64,000 nucleotides of DNA, from positions 372,001-436,000 of the forward strand of contig JANJTC010000005.1 in assembly GCA_024711325.1 (NCBI GenBank), read 5' to 3'. This DNA comes from Bacteriovoracaceae bacterium. Lineage in GTDB: Bacteria > Bdellovibrionota > Bacteriovoracia > Bacteriovoracales > Bacteriovoracaceae. The position numbers and the translations under genes are program-made. Below, in pieces: positions 13,817 through 15,478 of the stretch. Below the pieces are notes generated by a model. It saw nothing but the letters and a program-made list of their open reading frames with translations. It made no database searches and had not been told where the DNA came from. Positions within the stretch are counted from its first letter, which is position 1, and each line of letters opens with the position of its first letter.

Positions 13817-14278
13817 TTATGTTCTGCTCAGTTCCACTGTTAATGGTATATTCCATAACGTCCTGGCATGAGTGATTTGTCTCTCGCAGGAGACACCACT
13901 GATACGATAATGACATTCCAACATGATTTTGAGCACCGATTCTCTAGATGGATTCTCAGGTTGAATTATCCCATAAGGTTCTAAATTCAGACTTTCACAT
14001 TTTTCCTCAAGAGATTTGATAATGGATTTGGCAAAATGATTCCCTCGCATTGACTCTTCCACTGCTAATGATATTTCGCCTCTCCGGTCTTCATGCGTTT
14101 CTATCCAGCCAAAACCTATCAGCTTGTCATCCTGATGAAATCGTATCCAAATTTGATTTTCTAGAGGGTCACCAATATTTGGTATAGAATCGAAATGAAA
14201 TGAAGTGAATGACTGCTCTTTGATAATCAGTTCTTTTTCTTTATCCCAAACTGGATTCTCTTCAATACTATTTAACAT
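13817..14278 (-). CDS. GNAT-family acetyltransferase
   Basis: Core IGFGWIETHEDRRGEISLAVEESMRGNHFAKSIIKSLEEKCESLNLEPYGIIQPENPSRESVLK; starts 3 nt after the thioesterase stop. Confidence 0.65.
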   Translation of the reverse strand: MLNSIEENPVWDKEKELIIKEQSFTSFHFDSIPNIGDPLENQIWIRFHQDDKLIGFGWIETHEDRRGEISLAVEESMRGNHFAKSIIKSLEEKCESLNLEPYGIIQPENPSRESVLKIMLECHYRISGVSCERQITHARTLWNIPLTVELSRT

Positions 14279-14281
14279 CTT

Positions 14282-14656
14282 TCAAACTTCTTTTTTTGAT
14301 TTATTGATTGATACAAACACGAAGCTTCCATGTAAGGCAAGTACTCGGCTTTCTGAGTACATGTCTTCTCTATAAACATCGACATTAATTTCGAGACTTG
14401 TATTTCCCACTCTTACGACTTGGGCATCTAACTCCACGATACTGCCACTCAGGATGGGTATTTTGAAGTTCACTTTATCGCTACTGACAGTCACCATCTT
14501 TTCTCGTGTGAACCGAGTGGCCGCAATGAAAGCTGCTTCATCCATCCACTGAAGTGCAGTGCCGCCAAAAAGAGTGTCATAATGGTTTGTATCGCCTGGA
14601 AATACTGTTTTAAAAACTCGGGTGCGTGAACTTGCAATTCTAGAATCGAGTGACAT
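14282..14656 (-). CDS. Acyl-CoA thioesterase (hotdog fold, YciA/BACH-like)
   Basis: FPGDTNHYDTLFGGTALQWMDEAAFIAATRF and SDKVNFKIPILSGSIVELDAQV; GAGG SD upstream. Confidence 0.85.
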   Translation of the reverse strand: MSLDSRIASSRTRVFKTVFPGDTNHYDTLFGGTALQWMDEAAFIAATRFTREKMVTVSSDKVNFKIPILSGSIVELDAQVVRVGNTSLEINVDVYREDMYSESRVLALHGSFVFVSINKSKKEV

Positions 14657-14659
14657 ACA

Positions 14660-14750
14660 TACCTCGTGTTGTAATCCTAGGGCGATCGGACTTTACCGTT
14701 GCGGGACAGTGCTGGAATTTCACCAGGCTTCAGCTGACTAGGAAGTTTAA
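14660..14750 (-). ncRNA. Cobalamin riboswitch-like aptamer
   Basis: Reverse strand: CTTCCTAGTCAGCTGAAGCCTGGTGAAATTCCAGCACTGTCCCGCAACGGTAAAGTCCGATCGCCCTAGGATTACAACACGAGG. GGTGAAATTCC, CTGTCCCGCAAC(G)GTAA and AGTCCGA match the cobalamin riboswitch core; outer TCCTAG/CTAGGA pairing closes it. Confidence 0.75.
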
Positions 14751-14863: not shown

Positions 14864-14892
14864 CTTAAAGGGTGATAAAAGAGGAGATTAAG

Positions 14893-15177
14893 ATGAAACC
14901 ATTTAAGCGTAAAACGATTACTGAGCTAAGAAGTAGTTTGTTCGAAACATTTGATGAAGTTTTATCAGGTGAGTCTCAGATAATTACTCACAAGAGTGGA
15001 AATGCCGTGGCATTAATTTCTCTTTCGAAAATTGAGGAAATGGAAAGAGAGATTGAGCTGCATAAGAACTTAGCAATTGGGTATGCTCAAGCGATGCGTG
15101 GAGAAGGTATCTCAACGAATGATCTTAAAATCAAAATGAAAGAGAAAGAAAAAAAGCTAAGAGCAAAGTATGGTTAG
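14893..15177 (+). CDS. Phd/YefM-family antitoxin
   Basis: RKTITELRSSLFETFDEVLSGESQIITHKSGNAVALISLSKIEEME; ATG after GAGGAG SD (upstream GTG at 14872 also possible). Confidence 0.85.
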   Translation: MKPFKRKTITELRSSLFETFDEVLSGESQIITHKSGNAVALISLSKIEEMEREIELHKNLAIGYAQAMRGEGISTNDLKIKMKEKEKKLRAKYG

Positions 15178-15478
15178 GTGGACACCCAAGTCCGAACAAG
15201 ACTTGGATAGTATCAGAGAGCATATTGCAGAGAACTTCAATGTTGACCTTGCAATTGAAACAGTTAATGAAATAATTGATCAAGTCGAGTCTTTGCTTTC
15301 TCAGAATCCTCTTGCCGGAGCTATTCTTGAAAGTAATCTGTTTTTTTCAAAACTCGTCATTCTGGGCAATTCCGTATTTTATTGTGAGAACCCCAAAGAT
15401 CGACATTTATATGTAGTATATGTTCAGGCCCGAAATACAGATCTTCAAACAGGCCGATTAACTAAAAGTGAAATTTAA
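15170..15478 (+). CDS. ParE/RelE-family toxin
   Basis: WTPKSEQDLDSIREHIAENFNVDLAIETVNEIIDQVESL..PLAG; overlaps the antitoxin by 8 nt. Confidence 0.85.
   Translation: MVRWTPKSEQDLDSIREHIAENFNVDLAIETVNEIIDQVESLLSQNPLAGAILESNLFFSKLVILGNSVFYCENPKDRHLYVVYVQARNTDLQTGRLTKSEI

Follow-up and report, generated by a model that had tools for sequence, protein, structure and literature searches.

The window, the whole stretch of 64,000 nucleotides that was analysed, belongs to a genome assembly of 3.55 Mb in 7 contigs and carries a compact cobalamin riboswitch just before the gene of an acyl-CoA thioesterase (TE). The features of this locus are as follows.

14675-14743, minus strand: cobalamin riboswitch aptamer, AdoCbl-II type without the P6 extension (cmscan, RF01689)
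14738-14743, minus strand: 5' strand of the closing helix, UCCUAG, paired with CUAGGA at 14680-14675 in the cmscan alignment
14714-14724, minus strand: stem-loop of the aptamer core, GGTGAAATTCC, read from the sequence and kept in an alignment of 12 TE leaders
14709-14693, minus strand: core motif CTGTCCCGCAACGGTAA, read on the strand
14702-14706, minus strand: loop L5, UCCCG, the aptamer half of the kissing loop, equal to the L5 consensus (PMC10653944)
14693-14686, minus strand: core motif AAGTCCGA, read on the strand
14681-14693, minus strand: B12 box AAGTCCGATCGCC, from the sequence and the cmscan alignment
14675-14680, minus strand: 3' strand of the closing helix, CUAGGA, paired with UCCUAG at 14738-14743 in the cmscan alignment
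14662-14666, minus strand: CGAGG, proposed L13 half of the kissing loop, lying over the Shine-Dalgarno sequence GAGG (14665-14662); CG[N]GG in relatives
14282-14656, minus strand: TE, 124 aa, acyl-CoA thioesterase of YciA-like hotdog fold (PF03061 4HBT, 69.6 bits)
13817-14278, minus strand: GNAT-family acetyltransferase (PF00583, 29.1 bits), 3 nt after the TE

The TE start codon, the ATG at 14656, is positioned 18 nt downstream of the aptamer and 5 nt from the Shine-Dalgarno sequence, in agreement with the first-pass annotation, which had placed GAGG and a start codon in succession here; a further ATG at 14660, 1 nt past the Shine-Dalgarno, opens a frame of 6 codons. The TE exceeds the gathering score of the 4HBT family (69.6 against 20.6 bits) and its relatives of solved structure are acyl-CoA hydrolases, some of them of the cytosolic ACOT type. 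The GNAT gene is probably co-transcribed with the TE, and a simple promoter scan found none. Divergent from the riboswitch-TE unit, a gene pair for a Phd/YefM antitoxin and a ParE-type toxin occupies 14872-15478 of the plus strand.

Aptamer and expression platform

Comparison of the window with all Rfam families by cmscan identified an AdoCbl-II (RF01689) match on the minus strand, 14743-14675, which covers the full model (1-81) end to end and exceeds its curated gathering cut-off (40.7 against 36.5 bits; E = 2.8e-6, computed for 64 kb and 4227 families). The sole other matches in the window were two tRNAs and, in a search of the whole genome, the TE-leader RNA was the top RF01689 match (E = 3.7e-8). 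The core motifs quoted in the first-pass annotation are all present on the minus strand and its assignment of the RNA to a compact cobalamin class stands: the RNA before the TE is unexceptional within an established cobalamin riboswitch class. Among orthologous leaders the closing helix differs from one to the next, and in 12 compact TE-leader aptamers, a modest sample in which the outer closing helix aligns poorly, double changes that preserve pairing were seen in the closing helix and in a second helix, at 4 of the 13 pairs predicted. The folding energy of the 105-nt leader by itself was no better than that of shuffled sequences (z +1.1) and is uninformative, so the case for the RNA is made by its match to the family model, by its conservation among relatives and by covariation.

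Two further convincing cobalamin riboswitches were identified in the genome, giving three in all: one precedes a gene for a btuB-like TonB receptor, for which the B12 receptor is the top model with a score below its cut-off, and the other precedes nrdG-nrdD, whose class III reductase has RNR_anaer_Bdell as its top model, in keeping with a placement of the genome in Bdellovibrionota. The metE, nrdBA, nrdDG and btuB-like genes are standard targets on B12 shortage. Given that the two other targets in this genome are of this standard kind, the organism deploys its B12 riboswitches as usual.

Corrinoid riboswitches work via a kissing loop between L5, of consensus UCCCG, and L13 (PMC10653944). In 26 of 28 TE leaders the pentamer CG[N]GG, where N is A, C or T, was found, nearly always fused to the Shine-Dalgarno sequence as CCCGNGGAGG, and the 21 occurrences of CCG[ACT]GG among 184 leaders (the same loci and window) fall nearly all in TE leaders. 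Provided that one base is bulged, CG[N]GG is complementary to L5 UCCCG; the L5-L13 kissing loop that ties the RF01689 class to its expression platform is thus present at the level of sequence, with the bulge assumed. In the metE leader of P. megaterium the L5 CCG/L13 CGG pair has been proven by compensatory mutation, and the kissing loop of env8HyCbl is a bulged, mismatched version, which the one-nucleotide bulge implied here resembles (PMC10653944). The position of CG[N]GG at the Shine-Dalgarno and its complementarity to L5 support translational repression through a kissing loop, in keeping with the kissing-loop platform beside the ribosome binding site, and the translational control, that had been suggested on first reading. 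It is proposed that upon binding of a corrinoid, probably adenosylcobalamin, L5 would kiss the CG[N]GG element, with CG and GG pairing around the single bulged base, hiding the ribosome site and blocking ribosomes, and that the thioesterase would be made when B12 is scarce. Repression of TE translation by the riboswitch is very likely.

Recurrence in two phyla

Among 146 related genomes the TE forms a sharp group of 16 orthologues of 52-100% identity, the next thioesterases being at most 44% identical, and none of these more distant thioesterases was seen by eye beside an RF01689 match among the matches listed for those genomes. A profile built from the orthologues found the TE in 34 of 379 genomes of the phylum, and in 31 of these 34 a cobalamin riboswitch lies upstream on the same strand, which answers in the affirmative the question of conservation before orthologous thioesterases raised by the first-pass annotation. 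Rfam models account for 30 of the 31 (13 above gathering) and the core motif for one (G209), while neither the Rfam models nor the core motif detected a riboswitch upstream of the TE in G041, G082 and G298. The distance from riboswitch to TE start is mostly about 100 nt or less and reaches 300-500 nt in G035 and G080, and the most divergent TE homologues, those of G270 and G359, are likewise preceded by a riboswitch. A tree of the TEs had too few columns to separate its deep forks and does not fix how many times the riboswitch was acquired.

Several of these leaders have features of their own. In the related genomes G080 and G035, an RF00174 riboswitch (55 bits) is separated from the TE by repeated segments (L174:1200-1500, plus strand, and the equivalent in L175). 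In L170 and L176 the Shine-Dalgarno of the riboswitch drives an open reading frame of 7 codons (MNFIITS and MNISSDL) and the TE start follows about 100 nt downstream. In G119 (L160) a terminator-like hairpin, CCCGAGACTTGGGTTTTTT, sits between riboswitch and TE and suggests that the switch has a transcriptional version here. A secreted DUF4430 protein (PF14478, 37.9 bits) is encoded immediately past the TE in G003 (L046:1041-1475, minus strand), and a secreted protein that resembles it, with no Pfam match, past the TE in G015 (L044:1863-2312, plus strand); the DUF4430 domain resembles the C-terminal domain of transcobalamin and so could bind corrinoids.

The nearest TE orthologues outside the phylum are from Bacteroidota. 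In Hymenobacter the TE is present in 43 of 61 genomes, and an RF00174 riboswitch above gathering was found just upstream in 26 of 30 loci examined. A profile search of 78 other TE loci, a list that includes two from Bdellovibrionota (L072 and L073), found 51 of them preceded on the TE strand by a cobalamin riboswitch and detected none in about a third. The riboswitch lies 120-510 nt from the TE in 19 of the 51 (Pontibacter, Chryseobacterium, Galbibacter and others) and approximately 2.5-3.3 kb upstream in the remaining 32, where the intervening genes are metE in 28 and nrdB-nrdA in one (Myroides, L140), with the intervening gene unassigned in three. The near-leader, metE and nrdBA layouts place the TE behind cobalamin riboswitches in at least three arrangements. 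One record, L115 (CP034120.1), is labelled Glaciecola amylolytica (Alteromonadaceae) and its TE groups with those of Flavobacteriales (95/95 support); it is likely to be a mislabelled record or a transfer. Taken together, the riboswitch-thioesterase unit is almost certainly real.

Role of the thioesterase and alternative readings

The pairing occurs again in most relatives of this predatory-type bacterium and in many Bacteroidota, often with known B12-shortage genes, with which the TE is grouped in the metE and nrdBA operons; the TE thus seems to belong to the bacterial response to B12 shortage, a membership hitherto overlooked. It is suggested that adenosylcobalamin-dependent acyl-CoA mutases, namely methylmalonyl-CoA mutase and the fused IcmF-type mutase, would in the absence of their cofactor allow their acyl-CoA substrates to accumulate and to trap CoA, and that the TE would hydrolyse the backed-up esters (of the propionyl-, methylmalonyl-, isobutyryl- and butyryl-CoA types) to free CoA, acting as the acyl-CoA counterpart of MetE and the B12-independent ribonucleotide reductases. 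The fact that YciA hydrolyses methylsuccinyl- and mesaconyl-CoA (PMC10560148) provides a precedent that fits the release of stalled acyl-CoAs by the TE, and a study cited in that paper carries a title on the cobalt-deficient production of acids derived from methylsuccinyl- and mesaconyl-CoA. Relief of CoA trapping as the role of the TE on B12 shortage is given an even chance, and the full explanation, a riboswitch-repressed TE made on B12 shortage that relieves CoA trapping behind the mutases, is judged somewhat more likely than not.

An acyl-CoA mutase protein (PF01642) is present in all 34 genomes of the phylum that carry the TE. Given that PF01642 is found in 348 of 379 genomes of the phylum and in 60 of 61 of Hymenobacter, where G436 has the TE and no PF01642 match, the mutases are near-universal and their co-occurrence with the TE proves little; as evidence in Hymenobacter it was dropped. 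Furthermore, four Bdellovibrio-type TE genomes (G200, G202, G204 and G209) contain PrpD of the methylcitrate cycle and, as their sole mutase, one of the IcmF type, which rules out methylmalonyl-CoA as a universal substrate and weakens methylmalonyl-CoA mutase alone as a rationale for the TE. Viewed by eye across the 379 genomes of the phylum, PrpD and a full-length methylmalonyl-CoA mutase appear for the most part to exclude one another, and Bdellovibrio-type genomes combine PrpD with no mutase match but that of the IcmF type.

Given this lack of discriminating power in the mutases, and given that YciA/ACOT-type enzymes are broad and that the solved relatives include ACOT-type cytosolic acyl-CoA hydrolases, it is conceivable that a riboswitch-repressed TE acts in the quality control or turnover of fatty acids, either by clearing the odd-chain or methyl-branched acyl-CoA primers that arise when propionyl- and methylmalonyl-CoA accumulate or by recycling long-chain acyl-CoA instead of relieving CoA trapping at the mutases. 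This is the less likely role, though one to be taken seriously; by itself it explains the shared operons with metE and nrdBA no better than relief of CoA trapping does.

The direction of control could also be reversed, if with no ligand bound the 3' strand of the closing helix and the Shine-Dalgarno formed a hairpin with the first part of the TE coding sequence (CUAGGAUU...CGAG with CUCG...GAUUCUAG), such that the ligand would switch the gene on. The hairpin concerned is the predicted minimum-free-energy fold of a 52-nt segment. However, such an ON switch is very improbable for three reasons: first, the hairpin is no better than those of shuffled sequences (z -0.68); second, the conserved pairing of CG[N]GG with L5 predicts repression; third, the metE and nrd genes likewise controlled in Bacteroidota are classic OFF targets. 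It is no more credible that the riboswitch governs the TE and GNAT genes as a unit, with the acetyltransferase as the relevant output, as might be supposed from the GNAT start 3 nt past the TE stop. The first-pass annotation had named this pair as the controlled unit, but a GNAT gene follows the TE only in the window genome (G000) and close behind it in a near-identical relative (G011), whereas all other TE loci examined carry another gene downstream (for MsrB, DUF4430, a flavin reductase, AAA_28, a pirin or a nitroreductase) or none on the strand. No conserved functional partner was found downstream among these loci and, as the neighbours vary, the conserved unit is the TE by itself, not the pair. 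Lastly, that the RNA is a chance resemblance or a functionless relict, a reading to which only the unexceptional folding energy of the leader inclines, is close to inconceivable in view of the RF01689 E-value, the riboswitches before orthologues in 31 of 34 genomes and again in Bacteroidota, and the pair-preserving changes in the aptamer helices.

Comparison with known systems

The categories that PMC3766115 gives for the cobalamin regulon are confined to synthesis, B12 transport, cobalt transport and isozymes, and the function of the TE falls outside them. The first-pass view of an unusual regulon member is therefore upheld as regards category, but the case is no one-off, being recurrent in two phyla. 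A full-text literature search found no report of a cobalamin riboswitch tied to a thioesterase, and an earlier mention in a regulon table is possible. It may be that a dedicated, B12-repressed TE constitutes a widespread safety valve of the CoA pool for when adenosylcobalamin-dependent acyl-CoA mutases stall, and with it a hitherto unrecognised category of the regulon in at least Bdellovibrionota and Bacteroidota, brought under riboswitch control in several operon contexts, a proposal for and against which the balance is about equal. If true, the TE would handle a metabolic back-up, whereas known cobalamin regulons make, import or bypass B12, and it would offer a bacterial parallel to the acyl-CoA stress of methylmalonic aciduria. 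The proposal also offers a role that can be tested to an abundant class of hotdog thioesterases of no assigned function, and points to the acyl-CoAs that should be assayed.

In its core motifs, L5 UCCCG and compact aptamer, as well as in the Shine-Dalgarno inside the L13 element and the closeness to the start codon, the RNA is like other members of AdoCbl-II (RF01689; clan mates RF01482 and RF00174), and it differs from them in its target, an acyl-CoA thioesterase. The TE shares the hotdog fold of YciA (HI0827; PMC10560148), which is its top NCBIfam model, but scores below the cut-off of that equivalog (NF007970; 48.5 against 162 bits), and the substrates assigned to it here are predicted ones. 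The leaders of G189 and G163, in which the CG[N]GG Shine-Dalgarno drives a short open reading frame before the TE, are like the metE and ppe2 B12 riboswitches of M. tuberculosis with their upstream short open reading frames (PMC11260477), and by analogy a coupling of leader frame and TE is possible in L170 and L176; the window leader differs in that the TE follows the riboswitch directly, with no short frame between. Finally, the regulons of B12-independent isozymes (metE, nrdAB/nrdDG under cobalamin riboswitches; PMC3766115) are repressed by B12 and expressed on shortage, as is proposed for the TE, which in Bacteroidota lies in common operons with metE or nrdBA. Nevertheless, the target here is a 4HBT thioesterase and not a B12-independent substitute: the TE replaces no B12 enzyme and would instead remove the stalled substrate of one.
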